From assembly GCA_021848825.1 (NCBI GenBank), contig JAJZTQ010000015.1, forward strand, positions 1-64,000: 64,000 nt of DNA, read 5' to 3'. The translations under genes were made by a program, and so were the position numbers. Of the stretch, positions 584-11,626 are shown in pieces; position 1 is the stretch's first letter; the number at the start of each line of letters is the position of its first letter. Source of the DNA: Pseudomonadota bacterium. Its GTDB lineage: Bacteria; Pseudomonadota; Gammaproteobacteria; Burkholderiales; JABEVD01. Under the pieces are notes generated by a model. The model had not been told where the DNA came from and made no database searches. It saw only the letters and a list, made by a program, of their open reading frames with translations.

Positions 584-1567
584 TCAGCGGTTGAGCGAAG
601 GGCAGCTGAATTCACTTTTCTGACTCAGATTGACAAGAATATCGATCAAATACTGGATGCTGGGGCCATGCAGTACCGATGGCGTCCTGATCAGATAAAA
701 GCACTCTATCTTGATATGACCCTCCCTGAATGGCAGCGCCAAAAGCTCCCCGCGGCCCAGCAACTCGGCAATTCTGTACCTCGGAAGCCAGGCGAAGCCG
801 ACCCCGTCCCGGACTGCTGCCAGCGCCGTATCCAGGCTGCTGACATGCCAATGGTGTCCTTTTGCCGTTCCATCATGCTCATCGGATTTTCCGATCATGA
901 TCTGTACCGTGTCCGCCAAATCCTGCACGGCAATTTCCCGTCCAATCTTGAACAGCGAATGAAGCGAGTTTGCGACGGCGACATATTCGATCTCCACCAG
1001 CGGAATGCCGATAAAACCAGCCGGAAGACCGCGACTGATGGCCAAATCGATGTCGCCCATATGCAATGGCTCCACAACTTCATCTTGACTTGTTTCATTG
1101 AGGAGAATTCTTGTGCATTTGGCTGCGGTATTGAATTCATTCAGCGACATCAGCAATAATTCCGTCGGGAAATCGGGATCACATCCCAAACGGATTTCGG
1201 AATCCCATCCACGCCCTAAAACTCGAGCCAATTCCTCGATATTGTTTGCCCTGCTGACCAGTTGCCTTGATTGCTCCAGAATCGCACTTCCAGCCTTGGT
1301 CAGCTTTGCCTTGCGGCCCTCTATTTTGAAGAGCGTCACCCCCAGTTGTTCCTCCATTTTCGAGATTGCACTGCTGATGGCAGATTGACTCAGATGCAGG
1401 GACGCCGATGCCTGTGAAAAACCGCCGCAATCCACCACTGCCTGCATGAAACGCCACTGCTTGAGGCTGACATGGGGATTCCTGGGCAAAGGATATTCAT
1501 CGAAGTTCCGCCCCGCATGGCTCCGGAAAGAATGGTTCGGCTGCGAGCCTTGTTCGTGATTGGTCAT
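584..1567 (-). CDS. LysR-family transcriptional regulator
   Basis: A 327-residue protein with the usual LysR plan. The winged helix-turn-helix is at about residues 32-92 (it contains FSQASASLHLSQSAISSAIS), and a periplasmic-binding-like effector domain covers about 115-310. The N-terminus has an unusual polar extension of about 30 residues before the HTH. Its start overlaps the stop of the PEP-CTERM gene upstream by four bases (ATGA), so it is translated as the last gene of the C39 peptidase/barrel/PEP-CTERM operon. LysR regulators usually control a divergent or adjacent gene. As the distal gene of this operon it may autoregulate it, but the effector cannot be predicted. Confidence 0.9.
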   Translation of the reverse strand: MTNHEQGSQPNHSFRSHAGRNFDEYPLPRNPHVSLKQWRFMQAVVDCGGFSQASASLHLSQSAISSAISKMEEQLGVTLFKIEGRKAKLTKAGSAILEQSRQLVSRANNIEELARVLGRGWDSEIRLGCDPDFPTELLLMSLNEFNTAAKCTRILLNETSQDEVVEPLHMGDIDLAISRGLPAGFIGIPLVEIEYVAVANSLHSLFKIGREIAVQDLADTVQIMIGKSDEHDGTAKGHHWHVSSLDTALAAVRDGVGFAWLPRYRIAELLGRGELLALPFREGHIKIECFYLIRTPSVLHGPSIQYLIDILVNLSQKSEFSCPSLNR

Positions 1568-3030
1568 TTCCGGCGCCCCCCTGGCTTGATTCCGGAAATT
1601 GCGGCAATCAGCGTCATGCCAACGGCGAACAAACCATATGTTGGCGGTTCCGGGACAGTCCCCGCAAATGAAAGGATGGCTGTAACAGGTTCATTGAATG
1701 GTCTAGCCCATATGTCTGAACCCGGGTCCGGTATTGAAAAACCGATGAAGAGTTCGGGCAACAGGGTGGAATCCGGAGTGAATCCATTGACATAATCCTT
1801 AAGCCAAGTGGACAAATCAGGCTGGACTGCACTGAAATCAAGAATCGGCGCGAACACATCAAATCCCTGCAAAGACATCAGTCTGTCCTCGAATACGAAA
1901 GCAGGAACTTGGGCAGTGAACAGGACTTCGCCTGCCTGAGACAAGAGACGAATCTCTCCGCCTGAAAAATAATCCAGTCCATTGATGCTATTCAAGAAAG
2001 TCAATGGATCGATTTCCAGGAACCCGTTGAACAAGGGGTCCCCCGCTCTTCCGCCCGAAAGGATGTCGAGCGGGAGTCTATCGAAAGTCAGCCGCCCGGC
2101 GCCGTTCCAGTGAATTTGATCCTGGCCGCCCGCAGCAGGCGGAATGTACCCTGTTTCCGGTCCATATCGGGTTGCCGCTCGCGGCGGCGCCTCATAAGAC
2201 ATGCCGATGCTTGTATTCCTGATTGAGATGGCATCCAGACCGGATATCAACGGGACCGACAATTGCAAAGTCTTCGGATGAGTACTCAGTGTCACCTGAT
2301 TTTCCTGCCACACTGTATTGCCGACAAGCCAGTTGCTGACTGAAGCATTTCCAGGCGGCTGGACGACCACGACGGATTGCCTGCCATCCATCGACAAGGC
2401 ATTGAAACCGAAAAGGCTCTGCGCTTTATCTTTCGTGGACTGCTGCAACACCTCGATCGAATTCGAAACGTAGGCGAGCGACGAGGATGGCAATGTCCCC
2501 CATCCAAGCCGACTGAAATTCACCGAAAGCACGATGCTCTGATTCGCCCCAGAATTTTCAAGCTGCACGCCCGAAATCTGCGCACTGCCGTAGGCTATGC
2601 CGCGAGAAAACAGGGGAATCTGGTTTTCCGCAGTTGCAATGGTCGCCTGGTCGACAGACAATGACGCGACAGGAACCGAAGCGTCGAATCCGCCCGTTCC
2701 GACATTCCGGGAGATGTCGGACGCAGCGGAACTTAGGGCAGAAGCGGATTGCCCGCCTTTCTGAGGGACTCCGCCATTGCCCGCATAACCGGCTGTTACT
2801 GCAACCGCATAGGCTGCCGTCGACGCACCCGAAAAGGCATTCTGGCTGGGCAGGAGCGTAATGCCCCCTACACCATTCAATGTCGCAAGCATGGTGAAAG
2901 CATTCATGGTCCAGGCCTCTTCTGACTGTATGGTTCCGGCCCAAGCGATGTTGTTGAAAATGAAACAGGCTCCAGGAACCAGTAGCCGTTTCACTGCCCA
3001 ATTCATCCTTCGATTGCAATTTGAACTCAT
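1564..3030 (-). CDS. PEP-CTERM secreted protein in the C39 peptidase operon
   Basis: About 488 residues. The chosen ATG has a GGGGG site 5-9 bases upstream; an ATG 15 bases further upstream (3045) lacks one. The N-terminus is a Sec signal peptide ending near NIAWAG. The body is rich in Gly, Ser, Ala and Val with no recognised domain. The last 28 residues form a PEP-CTERM sorting signal: VPEP, a hydrophobic stretch, then GRRK. Such proteins are processed by an exosortase and delivered to the cell surface or exopolysaccharide matrix. No exosortase gene is in the window. Placement after a C39 peptidase and an outer-membrane barrel suggests a surface component handled by the same operon. Confidence 0.8.
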   Translation of the reverse strand: MSSNCNRRMNWAVKRLLVPGACFIFNNIAWAGTIQSEEAWTMNAFTMLATLNGVGGITLLPSQNAFSGASTAAYAVAVTAGYAGNGGVPQKGGQSASALSSAASDISRNVGTGGFDASVPVASLSVDQATIATAENQIPLFSRGIAYGSAQISGVQLENSGANQSIVLSVNFSRLGWGTLPSSSLAYVSNSIEVLQQSTKDKAQSLFGFNALSMDGRQSVVVVQPPGNASVSNWLVGNTVWQENQVTLSTHPKTLQLSVPLISGLDAISIRNTSIGMSYEAPPRAATRYGPETGYIPPAAGGQDQIHWNGAGRLTFDRLPLDILSGGRAGDPLFNGFLEIDPLTFLNSINGLDYFSGGEIRLLSQAGEVLFTAQVPAFVFEDRLMSLQGFDVFAPILDFSAVQPDLSTWLKDYVNGFTPDSTLLPELFIGFSIPDPGSDIWARPFNEPVTAILSFAGTVPEPPTYGLFAVGMTLIAAISGIKPGGRRK

Positions 3031-3066
3031 GACGCCCCCTGTCATTGAAATCTGCCGCTTTTCCGC

Positions 3067-4233
3067 TCAATAGTTGAACAATATTGGAACGGTCACCCCG
3101 ATTTGATATTTAGGCGCATCGTTGCTCAGGCCTATACCCAGCACCACATTCATCATGACCTTCTTGCTGATGATCGAAGAGGCGCCGAGATTGAACATGC
3201 CGATGTTTTGCTCCGACCCCGGAATCTTTATTCCGTTTACCTGAATGGCTTGCGCAAATGTGTCGGAAAACGAAAACTGGAGGGACGTTTGCGGGCTGGA
3301 GGCGAGCATCGTTCCGATCGAGAAACCAGTCTGATTTCCCTGCATGATTTGATTTTTTTCAAAGGAATGCTGATAGCTGATGCTGCCGATAAACGCAAGC
3401 GGATCCTGGCGCTTCAGGGCGACAAACTGCACGTGGTAAGAGGGATTCCCGCCATAAAGCAATACACCGTTGTTTTGCTGAGCCCCTGTGCCCCATGTAT
3501 AGCCGATACGCCCGATGAGATCAGGCCGCCACCCCTGTTCATGAGAAAGTGTTTTCGCGATGCCCAGCGTGAGATCACCCAGCCCCTGTCCATGCATTGT
3601 GCTGACAAATCGACCGGATGCCCCCAGATCGGCAAGCTGTGTCTGGGATACGGAATAGTAGGGAAGCCCCAGCTCGAATTGTGATTCCCCTGGCAGACCG
3701 ACCTGCAGACCGAGGTTTCCTGCATATTCGTCCTGCTTTATCTGTTCATTGGCCAACACCAGATCGGAGGGCGATCCGGTGATCGTGTTTCTTACCGACA
3801 CGAATAGAGGCGAAGGCAATTCCCATCTTGTATAGCTGACACTGGGCAGCAAATCGAACTGACCGGCCGGCAAAAGAAGCGCGCCTGTCTGGGTCAAGGT
3901 TCTTTCCAGCGCTCTTTGTGCGGCTTCGACATCGACGGCAAAACTGCCCGGACCTTGATGGTTTGAATGGCTCCCGGCCGATCTCTGCCCCGTCGAGGGA
4001 GGGCTGTCGGGATGCGATGCCTTGCCATTTGACGGGTTCTGCATCGAATCCAGCCGCTGGGTCAATTCGTCCACCTGCCTCTGGAGTCTAGAAATGAGCG
4101 TGTACTGCTCGGTTATCAGACGCTTCAATGATTGCTCCGAATCATCCGTCCCCGACGCAGCGGATTGAACAGCCGCCATCGCAAGGTAAATACCGCAGGC
4201 TGCCGCAATTCCCCTGTTATTCTGAATAGCCAT
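3067..4233 (-). CDS. FapF-like outer-membrane beta-barrel with N-terminal coiled coil
   Basis: About 388 residues from the ATG at 4233, which follows an AAGGGGGAG site. A GTG at 4260 overlapping the upstream stop is the alternative start. After a signal peptide (to about residue 28) comes a predicted coiled coil at about 35-65 (leucine-spaced, Glu/Gln/Arg-rich), a Pro/Ser/Gly linker, and about 270 residues of alternating amphipathic strands ending in the aromatic terminus FNY, typical of outer-membrane barrels. In Pseudomonas, FapF is a trimeric barrel with an N-terminal coiled coil that exports amyloid subunits and is encoded with the C39 peptidase FapD. The matching order and architecture suggest the same role here; homology was not computed. 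Confidence 0.65.
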   Translation of the reverse strand: MAIQNNRGIAAACGIYLAMAAVQSAASGTDDSEQSLKRLITEQYTLISRLQRQVDELTQRLDSMQNPSNGKASHPDSPPSTGQRSAGSHSNHQGPGSFAVDVEAAQRALERTLTQTGALLLPAGQFDLLPSVSYTRWELPSPLFVSVRNTITGSPSDLVLANEQIKQDEYAGNLGLQVGLPGESQFELGLPYYSVSQTQLADLGASGRFVSTMHGQGLGDLTLGIAKTLSHEQGWRPDLIGRIGYTWGTGAQQNNGVLLYGGNPSYHVQFVALKRQDPLAFIGSISYQHSFEKNQIMQGNQTGFSIGTMLASSPQTSLQFSFSDTFAQAIQVNGIKIPGSEQNIGMFNLGASSIISKKVMMNVVLGIGLSNDAPKYQIGVTVPILFNY

Positions 4234-4256
4234 TGCTCCCCCTTTGAACGATTTAT

Positions 4257-4877
4257 TCACTTCAGCATGACGAAGTCCACATTGCGCATCGAAAGGCCAT
4301 TGGCGGGCATTTTGCTGCCGTCACGACGCTTGACGACAAAGCCCACCCGCCCGATTGCCGGAAAATCGATCCAACTCTCGATGAAATCGGTGACAAGCAT
4401 GGTGCGATTTCCCCAGGCTGGATCAGCCAGAAGCACCCGATTGGCCACAACCCCCCTGAAGACCACAAAATGGTTGTATCCCAGCACCTTCACCGGGACC
4501 ATCACCGGCGCCATGTCGATCAGATTTTTCAAATCCAGATTTCCATAGGCGACGCCCGAATGCCCGGTGAGATCGGTATACCGCTTCAAGTCGAGCAGGG
4601 AGAATCCCTGTCTTATCCGTATCAGTTCCGGATGCTGGACATAAACCTGTCTCTGCATCAGGGCGACGGCGATATCCTTCTCTGTGACAGGCTCGCGGTA
4701 TTGATAACGAAGAATGGTGGCAAGCGCGGCGGCTCCGCAGCTCAGGTCCCATTTTTGAATGACGACATTTTCATGCCGTATTTCCAGTAATGAAGTCACG
4801 ACAGCTTGACCTGCATGCGCGCCATTCGACGCAAAAATGAGCACCAGAGCCCAGAAGACATCAGACCACTTTTTCAT
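4257..4877 (-). CDS. Periplasmic C39-family cysteine peptidase (FapD-like)
   Basis: 206 residues with a Sec signal peptide ending near AHAG (residue 23). The C39 catalytic set is visible: Cys in DLSCGAAALATIL (about residue 47), His in YNHFVVF (about 136), and the Asp of LADPAWGN. C39 domains cut precursor peptides after double-glycine-type leaders (GG, GA, AG). Here the domain stands alone, without the ABC transporter found in bacteriocin exporters, as in FapD of the Fap amyloid system. It is the first gene of a four-gene operon, preceded by a G-rich ribosome-binding site and an AT-rich leader region. Possible substrates are the three TAG-motif proteins at 10.4-11.6 kb. Confidence 0.8.
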   Translation of the reverse strand: MKKWSDVFWALVLIFASNGAHAGQAVVTSLLEIRHENVVIQKWDLSCGAAALATILRYQYREPVTEKDIAVALMQRQVYVQHPELIRIRQGFSLLDLKRYTDLTGHSGVAYGNLDLKNLIDMAPVMVPVKVLGYNHFVVFRGVVANRVLLADPAWGNRTMLVTDFIESWIDFPAIGRVGFVVKRRDGSKMPANGLSMRNVDFVMLK

Positions 4878-5574: not shown

Positions 5575-7458
5575 ATGTTTAGACCGACCTATTCCGGATC
5601 GCCCCGGAGGACCGGGGAGACGCCCCGCCAGTCCATGCTCGACCTACTTGGTGCTCGGCAGCACATTGATACGGAAAGTCACCAGCTTCTCCTTGACGGC
5701 AAAATTGGCGGGGCCATCGGCGCGGGGAGGAACGTCACCTTCCCGATAGATACGACCGGGTCGGCTAAATTGATCGACGCGCTCTATGAAAACAGCGGCG
5801 AAGCCATCCTGATAACAGGCCCCGACAATTCAATCATTTCGGTCAATCCGCGATTCACGAAAATGACCGGCTACACCCTGGACGAAGTGGTCGGCAAAAC
5901 CCCCCACCTACTCAGCTCCGGTCTGCAGGACATCGCATTTTATGCAGAGATGTTCAGACAATTGCACGAAAAAGGCTCATGGCAAGGCAGGATCACCAAT
6001 CGAAAAAAGAATGGCGATCTTTACGTAGGCGATTTAACCATCAACCGCATCCTGAACGAGGATGGCTCCATATTCCGTCACATCGCTCAATACAGCGACG
6101 TTACCCCCAACTCCGAAGACCTGATATGGAAGGAAGCGAATTTCGACGCTTTGACGGGGTTACCCAACAGGCGCTTGTTTCATAACCGACTTGACCAGGA
6201 AATCAAGAAAATTTCACGCACTACTGGCAAAATATTCCTCACCTTCCTAGACCTGGACCATTTCAAAGAAGTCAATGACACGCTAGGCCATTTGAAAGGC
6301 GACATGCTCCTTGTCGACGCTTCCCGACGCATCAAGTCGTGCCTGCGTGAAGCCGACACAGTCGCCCGCATGGGCGGGGATGAGTTCATTATCATCCTGA
6401 CCGACGTCACCGGCACCGACGTCGAAAGAATATGCAATGACATCCTGGGAGTGCTCATCACGCCATTCAATTTGGGCAACGGCGATATTGTGCATATTTC
6501 CTGCAGTATCGGTATCGCAGTATTTCCGGATCATGCCGCCAAGGCAGACGAATTGATCAGATATGCCGATATGGCGATGTATGCCTCCAAATCAAGCGGG
6601 CGAAACCGCTTTGGCTTTTGCACCGACGCCATGACCGCAATGATCCGCGAGAAACAAAAGCTTGTGAACGCCCTGAAAAAAGCTGTCTGCACGAATGAAC
6701 TGAAAATTTACTGTCAGCCGATCGTTGACTTAAAAACCGGAATGACGGCGAAAATCGAAGTATTTCTGAGATGGCGGCATGGCAGATCCGGACTTGTTGA
6801 TCCGCCCACCTTCGTTCCCTTGGCAGAGGAAGCCGGACTCCTGACCGAGATCGCCAAATGGACACTTCAAGAAATAGTCTCATGTATCAAGCAATCCAAA
6901 GATGAAACTGGCAAGTGCATTCAGGCCTTCATACACACCAATTCCAAAATACAAATCGAGAATTTTCCCATGCAGCATCTGAAAGACTGCATCGAGGCTG
7001 CCGGCCTAAGCCCGGAATGCATCGTCATCAACATACCGGAGAGGCTGCTGCTAAAGGAATCAACAACAACCAAGACGCAGCTCAAGATTTTTCACGAAAG
7101 CGGCATCAGGGTTGCATATGATAATTTCGGGGTAGGGTTTTCCTCCCTTTCCCACCTCAAGGACTTTGACATCGACTATGTCGAGATAGACAAAAGCTTA
7201 ATCCATGCGATGACTGAAAGTGAACCAGACATGGCCATAGTTGAAACGATCATTCTGATCGCCAAGCGACTGGGGATAAAGACCATCGCCGAGGGGGTCG
7301 AGACGACGACCCAGCATGACATTCTGAGCGCTTTTGGCTGCGACTACGCGCAGGGATACCTGTATTCCCGCCCCCAGCCATTGAAAGAATTTGAAAAAAA
7401 ACTCAGCGCAGTTCCTGATCCTGTTGAACAGACCTGTTTTCGCGCAAGATCGTCGTAA
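5575..7458 (+). CDS. PAS-GGDEF-EAL c-di-GMP protein with altered EAL motifs
   Basis: 627 residues: a PAS domain at about 62-185 (sensor), GGDEF at about 190-350 and EAL at about 365-610. No membrane helix is seen, so it is probably cytoplasmic. The cyclase motif RMGGDEF (about residue 266) is intact and is preceded by an I-site RxxD (READ), so diguanylate cyclase activity with product inhibition is expected. The phosphodiesterase half is altered: ExLxR reads EVFLR and DDFG reads YDNFG, although EGVE is kept. It may bind rather than cut c-di-GMP. Its 3' end overlaps the convergent GGDEF-EAL gene by 56 bases. Confidence 0.92.
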   Translation: MFRPTYSGSPRRTGETPRQSMLDLLGARQHIDTESHQLLLDGKIGGAIGAGRNVTFPIDTTGSAKLIDALYENSGEAILITGPDNSIISVNPRFTKMTGYTLDEVVGKTPHLLSSGLQDIAFYAEMFRQLHEKGSWQGRITNRKKNGDLYVGDLTINRILNEDGSIFRHIAQYSDVTPNSEDLIWKEANFDALTGLPNRRLFHNRLDQEIKKISRTTGKIFLTFLDLDHFKEVNDTLGHLKGDMLLVDASRRIKSCLREADTVARMGGDEFIIILTDVTGTDVERICNDILGVLITPFNLGNGDIVHISCSIGIAVFPDHAAKADELIRYADMAMYASKSSGRNRFGFCTDAMTAMIREKQKLVNALKKAVCTNELKIYCQPIVDLKTGMTAKIEVFLRWRHGRSGLVDPPTFVPLAEEAGLLTEIAKWTLQEIVSCIKQSKDETGKCIQAFIHTNSKIQIENFPMQHLKDCIEAAGLSPECIVINIPERLLLKESTTTKTQLKIFHESGIRVAYDNFGVGFSSLSHLKDFDIDYVEIDKSLIHAMTESEPDMAIVETIILIAKRLGIKTIAEGVETTTQHDILSAFGCDYAQGYLYSRPQPLKEFEKKLSAVPDPVEQTCFRARSS

Positions 7459-9196
7459 TCCCGGCCGCATCAACGGCCGCGGAAAAAAATCTTCCCTGGA
7501 TGCCGTGGCATCCCCTGGACTTCAGGAATTCCCATTGATCCATTGATTCCACGCCTTCTGCAATGACGACGAGCCCCAGGCTCTTTGCCAGGCTTATTAT
7601 GGCATCTGCAATGGCTGCCGAGTCCGGATTTCCAGGCAAATCGGCCACGATAGACTTCCCGATTTTCAATTTGCTGACCGGAAAGGCTCTGAGACTGCTC
7701 AGCGAACAATAGCCGATGCCGAAATTGGCTACAGACAGCTTGACCTCCATCTTCCTGAGCTCGTTTGATATCGGAAGGGCGGCATCCGATTCATGCGCCA
7801 GATCCCGTTCAGTGATCTCGAATTCGAAGAGCCCGGGATCCATGCCCGCATTCCGCAGCAATTGTGAAACAGCGCCGATGAGTCCGTGCCGCCTGATTTG
7901 AGTGGCGGACATCCTTATCGCGACAGAGGCCGTGTAAAGTCCCGTTTTCCGCCATTCGTCGAGTTGATCGGCCGCCTTGTTCAACGTCAGACTCAAGATG
8001 TCGAGGATGAGGCCGCGATCCTCTGCAACCTGCATGAAAGCGTCGGGCTCGAGCAGGCCGAACTCAGGGTGATGCCAGTAAAGCATGCCTTCCAGGCCGA
8101 TGATTCTGCCGCTTCCCGCTTCGACCTGGGGCTGATAATACATCTCAAAGCCATTGGTGCCCAGCGCCTTCTTCAGGTTATTTTCAATGGCAAGTGATTC
8201 CAATACGCGAGCATTCATTTCATCCGTATAGAATTGAAAATTGCCTCTACCCAGTTTCTTTGCGTGATACATGGCTGAATCGGCATTCCTGAGCAGGGTC
8301 TGCATATCATCACCGTCGTTTGGGTAGACCGACGCGCCGATGCTGGCAGAAATTGAAAACACATGCCCTTCGATGTGAAAAGGCGCCTTGATCGACTCAA
8401 GAACGTTTTCGGCGACGATCGAAATAAAGTCAGAATTCGCGATGCTGCTCAATATGATGACGAATTCATCCCCGGAAAGCCTGGCTACCGTATCGAATTT
8501 TCTCGTACACCGGACCAGCCTTCTGGCGACGCTTTTCAGCAACTCGTCGCCCACAATGTGCCCCAGCGAATCGTTTATGCTTTTGAATCTGTCCAGATCG
8601 AGAAACAGGAGCGCCACCATATCTCCCTTGCGGTCGGCGGAAGCCAGCGCCTGGGCAAATCTGTCCTGAAAGAGCACGCGGTTGGGAAGCGCTGTCAGAA
8701 CATCGTAGTGCGCCAGATAATAGATGTGCTCCCGATAGGTATTGGTTGCCTCGAACAAGACAGACTTGCAAAGATCATGATCGAATTCGTCGATCGTACT
8801 TTCCAGGATTACATGACATTTATGGCCGTTCAGACATCTCATGTTCAATTCGACAGATGTCTTGCTGCCATTTTCAAAAACACGCCCAAGATGCGCAAGG
8901 AAGTCGTCGACATCCTCTTTCGCGACCCACCTTGAAAATTCTTCTCCGATAAGCTGCTCGCTCTGCATACCCAGCAACAATGCCCCCGAGGCGCTGACTT
9001 CATGAATGACGCCTTCCTTATTCAGAATGAAGTAACAAATCTGCGCATTTTCATAGATATCGGCGAAGCGTTCCTCCGACTCCTCGAGCCTGCGCTGTAT
9101 GGTTGAAATTTGCCTGTTTCGCTGTTCCATCTCCAGTCTCTGCAGATGCAGTTCATTCAACAACGATGCAATTGCCGGGTCTGCGGGATAACTCAT
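7403..9196 (-). CDS. PAS-GGDEF-EAL protein with degenerate EAL domain
   Basis: About 597 residues from the ATG at 9196, which has a GGGGGAA site; the frame is open further upstream without one. A coiled region and PAS domain occupy about 1-150, GGDEF about 155-315 and EAL about 330-580. The cyclase motif is SGDEF, a tolerated variant, with an RxxD I-site (RKFD). In the EAL domain ExLxR has become EGMLYW and DDFG has become ANFG, so metal-binding acids are missing and phosphodiesterase activity is unlikely. It faces a sister gene tail-to-tail, and rpoS lies upstream on the same strand. Confidence 0.92.
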   Translation of the reverse strand: MSYPADPAIASLLNELHLQRLEMEQRNRQISTIQRRLEESEERFADIYENAQICYFILNKEGVIHEVSASGALLLGMQSEQLIGEEFSRWVAKEDVDDFLAHLGRVFENGSKTSVELNMRCLNGHKCHVILESTIDEFDHDLCKSVLFEATNTYREHIYYLAHYDVLTALPNRVLFQDRFAQALASADRKGDMVALLFLDLDRFKSINDSLGHIVGDELLKSVARRLVRCTRKFDTVARLSGDEFVIILSSIANSDFISIVAENVLESIKAPFHIEGHVFSISASIGASVYPNDGDDMQTLLRNADSAMYHAKKLGRGNFQFYTDEMNARVLESLAIENNLKKALGTNGFEMYYQPQVEAGSGRIIGLEGMLYWHHPEFGLLEPDAFMQVAEDRGLILDILSLTLNKAADQLDEWRKTGLYTASVAIRMSATQIRRHGLIGAVSQLLRNAGMDPGLFEFEITERDLAHESDAALPISNELRKMEVKLSVANFGIGYCSLSSLRAFPVSKLKIGKSIVADLPGNPDSAAIADAIISLAKSLGLVVIAEGVESMDQWEFLKSRGCHGIQGRFFSAAVDAAGITTILRENRSVQQDQELR

Positions 9197-9456
9197 TTTT
9201 GTTCCCCCATTAATTCCTATCGATGCGCAATGAAATTTAGGCAGGTGAAGGTGAAGTTGTTGCACCCGAAAAGACGAGAAAGCCTATCGGCATCGTTTTC
9301 CCTTCACCAGAAAACACAATTCCCTACGCCTGCCTGGTCTGCAACCGGTCAATTTTTTGTTCTCCAAGCTTGCCGAAAGCTTCCTTGTCAATACAGAAGC
9401 AACGATGCCGCCCGAGCGAATCCATATCCAGACATTGCCCGACGTTCCCATTCGCG

Positions 9457-10389
9457 CTACCCGTCGCCTTGCAATTGCATTCTGAGATCATCGGAAATAC
9501 CCCTCGCTCCGAACGTATTCTTCAACCCCTTCAGGGTTTCGGTTTGGATCTGCCTGACCCTTTCTTTCGTGATCCCCATCTTTCTGGCGATCTGGTCAAG
9601 CGTCATGGGTTCGTCCCCATTGAAGCCATACCGGCTCTCGATGATGAATTTCTGCTTTTCATTCAGGGTATTGATCCATGCCGCGACAATCCGTTTCATC
9701 TCGTTGTCTGCCAGGGCCATTTCGGGCGACAATGATTGCTCGTCGGGGACTGACTCGGCTATCGTCAGCGTTTCGTCGATATCGAGGGGCGTATCCAGAG
9801 AGATGGTCCATTCGCTATGGCTCAGCATCTGCTGGACATGATCAATCGGCATACCCAATTTCTCTGCAGCATCGGCAACGGAGCTTTCCATGCTGCCGTG
9901 GGTTTCGAGCGCCCTGCGTATTGAATTGATCTGTTTTATGACATGCACGGGCAAGCGAATTGTTCTAGCCTGGTTCATGATTGCCCTTTCGATGCTCTGC
10001 CTTATCCACCAGGTGGCATAGGTCGAAAACCGATACCCCATATCCGGCACGAATTTTTCGATGGCATGAATCAGGCCCAGATTACCCTCCTCCACCAAAT
10101 CGAGGAAGTCGAGGCCGCGATCCTGATATCGTTTCGCGATGCTGACTACAAGCCGGAGGTTATGTTCTATCATGAGCTGCCTCGCTTCGAATTCCCCGGA
10201 CTTGGCAAGTTCCGCATAGTGCCTCTCCCGATCCGGAGTCAGCACTTCCCGCTTTCTCATGCTACGCAGATAAATCTGAGTCACATCGCTCACAACCTTC
10301 CCTTCCACGGGCATATCCTGATACGCGGAATGGTTTCCGCAATCGCATTCGCCACGGCATCTATCGTCGTCTTCCATGATCGGCAGCAT
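9457..10389 (-). CDS. rpoS: RNA polymerase sigma factor RpoS
   Basis: 310 residues with the sigma-70 family layout. Region 1.2 is near residues 33-65, followed by region 2 with [14 protein letters not shown] and [13 protein letters not shown]. Regions 3 and 4 follow, with a -35 recognition helix near [19 protein letters not shown]. The length, the short N-terminus without region 1.1 and these motifs match RpoS rather than RpoD. RpoS directs stationary-phase and general stress transcription. The start ATG has GAGGAG about nine bases upstream. Three small secreted-protein genes precede it on the same strand, the nearest 53 bases away, so read-through from them is possible. No nlpD gene is adjacent, unlike in enterics and pseudomonads. 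Confidence 0.93.
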
Positions 10390-10442: not shown

Positions 10443-10880
10443 CTACTGGATCATGATCGGAGTCTGGAAAGATCCGAACTGTACCGTGGTGCTGCCGCTG
10501 ACCGATGTTCCGTTGATATTCTGATTCACATTGATCGAGTAGGTGATGACGTTGAGGCCCGCAACGTTTGCGGTGGATACCGCTGCAGTATTGGCGGAGG
10601 CACCCTGCCCCAAAGCCGTCGCCGTCGCCACCCCGCCGGATCCGGCTGCATAGCCCGTCAATGCAGCCTGGCCGTTCATTGTCGACTGGGTTATCAGCGC
10701 ATTGGCAACTGTTTGAGTCACCGCAACCGGCCCCGTGGCAGTCGCCACTGTTGTCGCGCCGGCGCCACCCCCGGCAGTAATGGCATCCAGTTGAACCGCA
10801 TTCAACCTGACGGGATCGGCCATCACCGCGAAAGACAGGAAAGACAATACCATTCCGAATGGAAAGACATTCTTTTTCAT
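10443..10880 (-). CDS. Secreted Gly/Ala/Thr-rich protein with double-glycine-like leader (peptide C)
   Basis: About 145 residues from the ATG at 10880, chosen for spacing from a GAAGGGGG site; an ATG at 10886 is the alternative. A Sec signal ends near residue 21 (AVMA). It is followed by LNAVQLDAITAG at about 26-37, then a low-complexity remainder rich in Gly, Ala, Thr, Val, Asn and Gln (for example NVNQNINGTSVSG). The 12-residue motif is shared with the next two genes and fits the double-glycine leader pattern: L at -12, Q at -8, L/M at -7, I/V at -4, AG at -2/-1. It is possibly an amyloid-type or matrix protein; this is inference. Confidence 0.75.
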   Translation of the reverse strand: MKKNVFPFGMVLSFLSFAVMADPVRLNAVQLDAITAGGGAGATTVATATGPVAVTQTVANALITQSTMNGQAALTGYAAGSGGVATATALGQGASANTAAVSTANVAGLNVITYSINVNQNINGTSVSGSTTVQFGSFQTPIMIQ

Positions 10881-10967
10881 TTTCATACCCCCTTCGACTG
10901 AATTGAAAAGCCTGAAACGAGGACGGCCCGGACAACAGGCCGTCCCTCGATTGCCGCTATTTCGCGA

Positions 10968-11288
10968 TCAGGGCAAAGTAGCGGTTGCAGTTGCACCGCT
11001 CGATGCGACCGCCCCGAAGTAGACCGAATAGGCTATCGCACCGCTGAGTGCCGTAGCGCTGGCGCTTTGGGTGATCGCGTTGGCCAGCGTGCCGGTGACA
11101 GCGCTGGTGGCAGACATCACGTCGCCGAAGGCAAGGGCGCCCGATCCGGCAACAGCCGTCGCGCCAGCGGTGACGTTGTCCATTTGCGCGTTGCTCAGCA
11201 GCGTCGGATCAGCCGCGTTTGCCAGACCGAACCCGGCAAAGTACATCAGCCCTGCAGCCACAAGTGCGATATGTTTCGTGCTTTTCAT
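10968..11288 (-). CDS. Secreted Ala/Thr/Ser-rich protein with double-glycine-like leader (peptide B)
   Basis: 106 residues with AAGGAGA well placed before the ATG. The Sec signal ends near GLANA (residue 25). The motif LSNAQMDNVTAG is at about 31-42, followed by about 64 residues composed mostly of Ala, Ser, Thr, Gly and Val. It is a clear paralogue of peptides A and C by motif, signal and composition. The gene lies 47 bases after peptide A and 81 before peptide C on the same strand, so co-transcription is likely. No known family was recognised. Confidence 0.75.
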   Translation of the reverse strand: MKSTKHIALVAAGLMYFAGFGLANAADPTLLSNAQMDNVTAGATAVAGSGALAFGDVMSATSAVTGTLANAITQSASATALSGAIAYSVYFGAVASSGATATATLP

Positions 11289-11335
11289 TTTGATCTCCTT
11301 AAAATGGTTGATTCAGGATTGGCAGAAGCCCATCT

Positions 11336-11626
11336 TCACATAGCGGAAGAAGCGGAAGTAGAAATTGCAGCCGACCCTACTCCGGAAATCGTGGTCGTCT
11401 CGAAGGTCTGCGACACCACGACATTGGTCAGCGCGGAAGCAAAAGTCACAGTGGCCGCAAAGGAAGGACCAATTGCTCCTGCAAGCGCATTGGCATATGA
11501 AATGCCGCCTGCGGTGACATGATCCATTTGGGCTGCATTCAGCTGAACAGGCTCACCTGCAAACGCCATCGTAGACAGCGCAAGAAGAGGGGCTGCAATC
11601 ATCGTGCTTATCCATTTCGCTTTCAT
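11336..11626 (-). CDS. Secreted small protein with double-glycine-like leader (peptide A)
   Basis: 96 residues with a TAAGGAGA site before the ATG. The Sec signal ends at MAFAG (about residue 24). LNAAQMDHVTAG follows at about 29-40, leaving about 56 residues rich in Ala, Ser, Thr and Val if cut there. It is the first of three tandem paralogues that end just before rpoS. Having both a Sec signal and a double-glycine-like site suggests export to the periplasm and then trimming there. The periplasmic C39 peptidase encoded at 4257..4877 is the obvious candidate enzyme. Function is otherwise unknown. Confidence 0.75.
   Translation of the reverse strand: MKAKWISTMIAAPLLALSTMAFAGEPVQLNAAQMDHVTAGGISYANALAGAIGPSFAATVTFASALTNVVVSQTFETTTISGVGSAAISTSASSAM

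Follow-up and report, generated by a model that had tools for sequence, protein, structure and literature searches.

The stretch analysed here (the window) is 64,000 nucleotides long, positions 1 to 64,000 of contig JAJZTQ010000015.1 from a Burkholderiales bacterium (assembly GCA_021848825.1). It holds three tandem genes for small exported peptides, A, B and C, each with a Sec-type signal followed by a second, double-glycine-like leader that ends in Ala-Gly (AG), and, farther along the same strand, overlapping genes for a C39-family peptidase and a FapF-like barrel protein (Table 1).

Table 1. Features of the window discussed in the text
Feature	Position	Strand	Description
Peptide C precursor	11336..11626	-	96 aa: Sec-type signal, leader LNAAQMDHVTAG (11507-11542), remainder 56 aa
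Peptide B precursor	10968..11288	-	106 aa: Sec-type signal, leader LSNAQMDNVTAG (11163-11198), remainder 64 aa
Peptide A precursor	10443..10886	-	147 aa: Sec-type signal, leader LNAVQLDAITAG (10770-10805), remainder 108 aa
C39 peptidase	4257..4877	-	206 aa, Sec-type signal; PF03412 2.5e-11
FapF-like protein	3067..4260	-	397 aa: signal, predicted long helix, beta-barrel; proposed outer-membrane channel
Sigma-70 family factor (regions 1.2, 2, 3, 4)	9457..10389	-	53 bp 3' of peptide A
Two GGDEF/EAL-like genes	5575-7458 and 7403-9265	opposite strands	3' ends overlapping; assigned by reading the sequence
493-aa exported protein	1564..3045	-	weak PEP-CTERM-like end (E 0.016, below cut-off), no AG leader
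LysR-type regulator (by sequence)	584..1567	-	overlaps 493-aa gene by 4 bp

The peptides, the peptidase and the barrel

The peptide genes are read in the order C, B, A, with spacers of 47 bp (C-B) and 81 bp (B-A), and a purine-rich, Shine-Dalgarno-like stretch lies upstream of each. A first-pass annotation of this DNA had claimed that the three precursors share the 12-residue motif L[NS]xxQ[LM]Dx[IV]TAG directly after a Sec signal, and the open reading frames and an alignment confirm it, with M1, L28, Q32, D34, T37, A38 and G39 among the shared positions; the Sec-type signals of A, B, C and the C39 peptidase were assigned by eye from the sequence. The motif places hydrophobic residues at -12, -7 and -4 and AG at -2/-1. 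The spacing of double-glycine leaders that the annotation saw in it holds as well, as the motif has the register of the sequence recognised by C39 peptidases, L-12, E-8, L-7, V-4, GG (PMC6363468; papers are cited by PubMed Central (PMC) number). At the DNA level, a pattern for the second half of the motif, covering the Leu codons CTG and TTG only, has three matches in the 2.74 Mb genome, all of them in A, B and C; the backward pattern has none, and the forward pattern has none in the eight congener genomes searched.

After TAG, the remainders consist to 68-73% of A/G/S/T/N/Q, and their 228 residues together include no K/R and two D/E. The fibre-like composition that had been noted thus stands, and it is compatible with a functional amyloid, while a fibre role would follow from it by analogy. 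Because they contain no Lys or Arg, mature A-C would be missed by standard tryptic proteomics. A sigma-70 promoter scan found no promoter (shuffles gave a mean of 2.2), and peptide C had no match among plasmids.

The window's peptidase has a C39 domain, the catalytic residues and a Sec-type signal and carries no ATP-binding cassette (ABC) domains, as a free-standing peptidase should, and it is probably periplasmic because of that signal. Gln41, which we take to be the oxyanion residue, Cys47, His136 and Asp152 are invariant across five aligned C39s of the clade with AG-leader neighbours described below. Among NCBIfam models the protein matches FapD (1.9e-26, 92.8 bits against a curated cut-off of 330) and FilB (2.3e-22, 79.7 bits against a cut-off of 475); the FapD cut-off was reached by none of 303 class genomes. 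In the Protein Data Bank it finds one weak C39-family match (6mpz, E 7.5e-6), and tblastn finds distant relatives only, in 74 plasmid records (at best 42% identity) and two phage records. At E ≤ 0.001, PF03412 matches two open frames of the genome, one of 213 aa and one of 350 aa. Neither is an ABC transporter, and the match other than the window's C39 is a 304-aa lipoprotein-like protein.

The FapF-like gene overlaps the C39 gene by 4 bp. Its product scores 53.9 bits against the NCBIfam FapF model (1.3e-14; cut-off 700) and matches FapF 5o65 by phmmer at 4.6e-7. A structure model of it, with a mean predicted local distance difference test (pLDDT) value of 54.7, has only FapF chains from crystal structures as its top 18 Foldseek matches, so that the model indicates a FapF-type outer-membrane barrel fold.

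Leaders and peptidases in other genomes

With the window's C39, a scan of 84,980 species (one genome each), which finds close relatives only, returned three loci, in Herbaspirillum (L008), in an Acetobacteraceae metagenome-assembled genome (MAG; L009) and in a Methylococcaceae MAG (L010). Beside their C39 genes lie five, four and three Sec-exported peptides with TAG or SAG leaders, respectively. L009 has two tandem C39 genes, and its taxonomic placement is uncertain because the contig is only 5.1 kb long. Twelve leaders from these loci and the three of the window were made into a leader profile, and five C39s into a C39 profile, and both were run on the same 618 genomes, 300 from the order and 321 from the class with 3 shared.

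In the order sample the C39 profile matches 42 genomes at E ≤ 1e-10, four of them with at least 200 bits (G000 369, G085 317, G041 308, G146 200), and the leader profile at E ≤ 1e-4 matches G000, G041, G085 and G131. The class sample has C39 matches in 40 genomes, and those with at least 200 bits, G000, G434, G544 and G470, are exactly those with a leader match. Taken together, 7 of the 618 genomes are leader-positive and seven have a C39 of at least 200 bits; the two sets share six genomes (Fisher p 6e-13, uncorrected for kinship, the six genomes spanning the five families f1, f34, f77, f184 and f186, and not adjusted for the choice of the 200-bit line, which was set after the gap was seen). 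The next C39 below that line (G452, 133 bits) also has AG-leader neighbours. At E < 1e-6 there are five leader-positive genomes, all with a close C39 (p 3e-11); the limit of 1e-4 was used instead of 0.05, at which the profile matched 146 of the 300 order genomes. The match in G131 (9.4e-5, profile positions 4-35) was rejected as false, as the Sec protein in question has LAPDQMD but lacks TAG. G146 (L073), which holds the remaining close C39, encodes next to it a Sec peptide with the variant leader MSDAQMDRVAAG, which the profile missed. In a sample of 214 phylum genomes, some of them shared with the other samples, a close C39 or a leader was found in the window's own genome only. The first-pass annotation had said that a motif occurring mostly in genomes without such a peptidase would count against its proposal that A-C are clients of the C39, and the distribution is the opposite. 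The pairing of AG leaders with a periplasmic C39 is therefore strongly supported; for the proposal itself this is the part that is borne out, and a cut after TAG is predicted from the sequence.

In the window and ten other loci (the AG loci), 34 leader precursors were collected, 32 ending in AG and 2 in AA, and 8 of the 11 loci have at least three leader proteins. The features of a C39 leader, hydrophobic residues at -12/-7/-4, an acid or amide at -8 and small residues at -2/-1, are present in A, B, C and the other 31. The leader has L/M at -12, mostly Q/E at -8, M/L at -7, Asp at -6 and V/I at -4. The search pattern used positions -12, -8, -7, -6, -4, -2 and -1; outside it, S/N/T stands at -11 in 29 and T/S at -3 in 31 of the 34. 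After the leader the net charge is zero or negative in 32/34 precursors. All 31 precursors outside the window are encoded within 2.3 kb of a C39 gene and on its strand, and a FapF-like gene is present in 11/11 loci. The finding of such tagged proteins beside the C39 in the relatives examined suggests a two-step export of fibre subunits.

In two loci, L072 (G041) and L071 (G085), the C39 gene is immediately preceded by orthologues of the peptide genes, again ordered C, B, A. Those of C share 62-64% identity with it over 85 residues and those of A 49-51%; the B orthologue of L072 shares 60% over 43 residues, and that of L071 was assigned by position and by its likeness to L072. Between L071 and L072, which are of one genus, nonsynonymous and synonymous divergence (dN/dS) are 0.014/0.391 for C, 0.023/0.300 for B and 0.029/0.419 for A, and the three genes are under strong purifying selection. 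After the C39 gene, both cassettes continue with a FapF-like gene, a gene whose 268-aa Sec product bears LMPGQMDRVTAA, and a gene for a relative of the window's sigma factor. Another leader protein is a 601-aa Sec protein of L152 (1274-3079) with the AG-type leader LSDNQLDQMTAG, and the leader is therefore not confined to small peptides. In L008 (10764-13157), four of the five Herbaspirillum peptides have curlin-like remainders (ASPV or ISPV, GGGN or GNNN, SGN...Q); of two that were scanned, the Pfam curlin repeat is sub-threshold in one (E 0.65) and absent from the other.

The relation of the peptidases to their neighbours was followed on a tree of 66 C39 rows from 64 loci, comprising 40 order regions, 20 class regions, L008-L010 and the window. 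The order regions hold 41 of 51 C39 matches, with the window's own among the ten left out, and the class regions 20 of 52; the matches outside the neighbour analysis are all under 115 bits. FapF-like proteins are found by profile in 34/40, 20/20 and 3/3 fetched loci, some weakly (from 18.5 bits). A row was labelled as having AG neighbours when a leader lay within 2.6 kb of the C39, except that the window, whose peptides are farther off, was labelled by hand. A branch with support 99/91 sets all 12 rows so labelled apart from the rest, and the trait changes once on the tree, against 11.2 changes in shuffles. The window's genus also has a C39 of another clade (G002, L087) that is followed by a barrel-like gene and lacks an AG leader nearby; its gene overlaps by 4 bp the end of an 826-aa gene (6699-9179) of haemagglutinin-like appearance.

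Among the other 54 rows, two clades have a Sec protein encoded directly after the C39, in the FapE position. It bears a leader-like motif that ends in RG[GKR], mostly followed by F/Y (L075, L077, L084, L091, L094, L095, L097, L098, L101, L102, L104, L105, L106, L155, L156, L164, L166 and others). In a 16-row clade this motif ends in [RT]G[KR] in 15, and in the sixteenth too by eye; in a 26-row clade it ends in RGG in 20. Endings in K/R thus number 15/15 in the former and 0/20 in the latter (p 3e-10, on few evolutionary events). The NCBIfam FapE model matches three proteins of the 16-row clade below its cut-off (1e-22 to 1e-34) and none of three scanned from the 26-row clade (L091, L102, L105), which makes three of six FapE-position proteins; it has no match in the window's genome, and likewise none in the control genomes. 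A six-row clade has Sec neighbours ending in GQ in three rows, and two of these that were scanned match the FilA model (4.6e-14 and 0.0018). FilA-like Sec proteins beside a C39, with the register ending in TGQ or SGQ, lie in L076 (7049-7654), L081 (5129-5848), L158 (284-1762) and L168 (4697-5566). The small proteins encoded upstream of the C39 in the RGG clade have varied endings (GG, GR, GK, GQ), which argues against a strict rule tying the last residues to the C39 clade, as does the finding of no client in 3/6 rows of the GQ clade and in 6/6 rows outside the named clades.

Two proposed N-terminal addresses and competing readings

We think it probable that A-C are fibre precursors with two N-terminal addresses, one for Sec and one for the C39, whose cut would be followed by export through the FapF-like barrel. 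Sec would move A, B and C to the periplasm, where signal peptidase I would remove the first address and leave a short leader bearing the C39 recognition sequence. The periplasmic C39, which we propose to act on A-C as a second signal peptidase, would bind this leader and cut after Ala-Gly. The nearly charge-free, Ala/Gly/Ser/Thr-rich remainder could then cross the outer membrane via the barrel and form a fibre or matrix on the outside. The second leader would probably prevent early assembly of the subunits and route them to the channel. The fibre role is put forward by analogy, from the composition and from FapF and the pilus subunit FilA.

Several observations weigh against this account. In the window, 5.6 kb separates the gene group of the peptides from that of the C39 (5.6-6.8 kb from peptide to C39 gene), and the two GGDEF/EAL-like genes lie in between; this gap looks like a later separation, since L071 and L072 keep the peptides directly upstream of the C39. 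Some AG-leader proteins are large (268 aa, ending in AA, in L071/L072; 601 aa in L152), and the remainders differ greatly between loci and show none of the known amyloid repeats. Matches of A-C in Pfam, NCBIfam and PHROGs were all sub-threshold and were taken as chance. AlphaFold2 with five sequences gave no usable model of the C39 (mean pLDDT 42.7, predicted template modelling score 0.38). In the tree, the C39 of L152 sits on a very long branch, which makes its placement in the clade unsure.

The same leader and peptidase could also serve other ends. A-C might be cut by the C39 but act like FapE, as minor secreted factors that prime or anchor the export of something else. The protein in the FapE position of Fap-like loci does bear a leader-like motif, and FapD is thought to process FapE (PMC12822426); yet all 11 AG loci lack a FapC-like repeat protein to serve as the main subunit, 8 of them have three or more leader proteins, and FilA, itself a pilus subunit, bears such a motif, so that we regard this role as unlikely. 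It is quite improbable that A-C are microcin-like peptide toxins or signals, exported by Sec and matured by the periplasmic C39, as small tandem genes and a double-glycine-like leader typical of bacteriocins might suggest. The peptides are not cationic, as their lack of K/R and the charge of the other precursors show, the leader is also borne by the 268- and 601-aa proteins, bacteriocin models in the Pfam and NCBIfam scans match none of A-C, and no immunity gene was noticed, though no dedicated search was made.

A C39 that binds the motif as a docking signal and acts as a chaperone without cutting has a precedent in C39-like domains that are inactive and only handle substrates (PMC5557850, PMC5135000). 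Against it stand the four invariant residues of the AG-clade C39s and, in Fap, the C38A mutant of FapD, which abolishes FapC secretion, and we hold docking to be just as improbable as a toxin. The motif could, lastly, be a conserved start of the mature peptides while the C39 cuts another target, such as the 493-aa protein or, within the FapF-like protein, the linker, much as FapF itself has been proposed as a FapD target. This is very improbable, as it leaves unexplained that the motif tracks C39 relatedness and has C39 spacing, and that the last residues at the FapE position depend on the clade. Two addresses on a fibre precursor remain our preferred account of A-C.

Other genes of the window touch this account at its edges. 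The sigma-70 family factor is a possible regulator; homologues with 44-48% identity lie near the cassettes of L071 and L072, and none was found in the other eight AG loci fetched. In L008 and in L072 a LysR homologue (41% and 42% identity over ~290 residues) adjoins the cassette, and the 493-aa protein has a homologue only in L010 (33% identity, beside the cassette) among the ten other AG loci. The GGDEF/EAL-like pair separates the peptide genes from the C39 group, and a link to cyclic-di-GMP is possible.

If the second leader is removed only in the periplasm, it would give fibre subunits a clean safety catch and be useful for engineered secretion as well. In the literature searched, which has most subscription journals outside it and was accessible in part, we recognised no description of a double leader for Sec and C39.

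Comparison with known systems

Double-glycine peptides, such as the substrates of ABC transporter maturation and secretion (AMS) proteins or peptidase-containing ABC transporters (PCAT) and the class II bacteriocins, resemble the AG system in L-12, [EQ]-8, [LM]-7, [VI]-4 and two small residues, and in the use of the C39 family. Unlike those with C39 ABC exporters, the AG system has a Sec-type signal, a free-standing peptidase with its own signal, and AG rather than GG; the PF03412 search found no C39 ABC exporter in the genome. Curli also have small Sec-exported subunits and a dedicated outer-membrane pore, but they are not known to involve a C39, and their pore is of a different type.

The Fil pilus of Acinetobacter (FilA-FilB-FilC) is a further parallel. 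FilA, the pilus subunit (PMC11784438), has a Sec-type signal and then MDDAALSAATGQ, a motif in the same register, and its gene lies just upstream of a C39 gene. It differs in its ending, GQ, and in that the locus seen has one subunit, of 289 aa; the C39s beside FilA-like genes fall in a different clade of the tree, and the FilA model does not match A, B or C.

The Fap system of Pseudomonas (FapD-FapE-FapF) likewise has a C39 with a Sec signal beside a FapF-type barrel gene, and Sec-exported clients. AG-leader proteins stand in place of the FapC-type repeat, and the FapD and FapF models score far below their cut-offs. The FapB/FapC repeat (N..AG..NQQ.N) has no match in the window or the ten other AG loci, against three to five matches in each of five Fap-like positive-control loci, which were chosen for their known repeats; as the repeat is absent from all 11 AG loci, these are not Fap. 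As to FapD, its target was called unclear in 2017 (PMC5557850) and its substrate yet to be determined in 2018 (PMC6173800), in a paper that also reports fapD-fapF pairs in five further phyla; a 2025 review names FapE and FapF as its presumed substrates (PMC12822426). From the sequences, the RG[GKR] motif in the FapE position of Fap-like loci is a candidate FapD target.

It may be that these systems are branches of one general Gram-negative route, in which a Sec signal and a C39 leader are read in turn and free-standing periplasmic C39s work with FapF-type channels, a proposal for and against which we judge the case to be evenly balanced. Its branches would be AG, RGG, RG[KR] (FapD/FapE) and GQ (FilB/FilA), with the RG[GKR] leader of FapE as the target of FapD and the AG branch as a separate fibre system made of several charge-free peptides. 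For the AG branch there are now candidate clients and a cut site predicted to the residue, the other branches gain a shared register, and the target of FapD becomes testable through the AG branch as a variant of the Fap and Fil kind.
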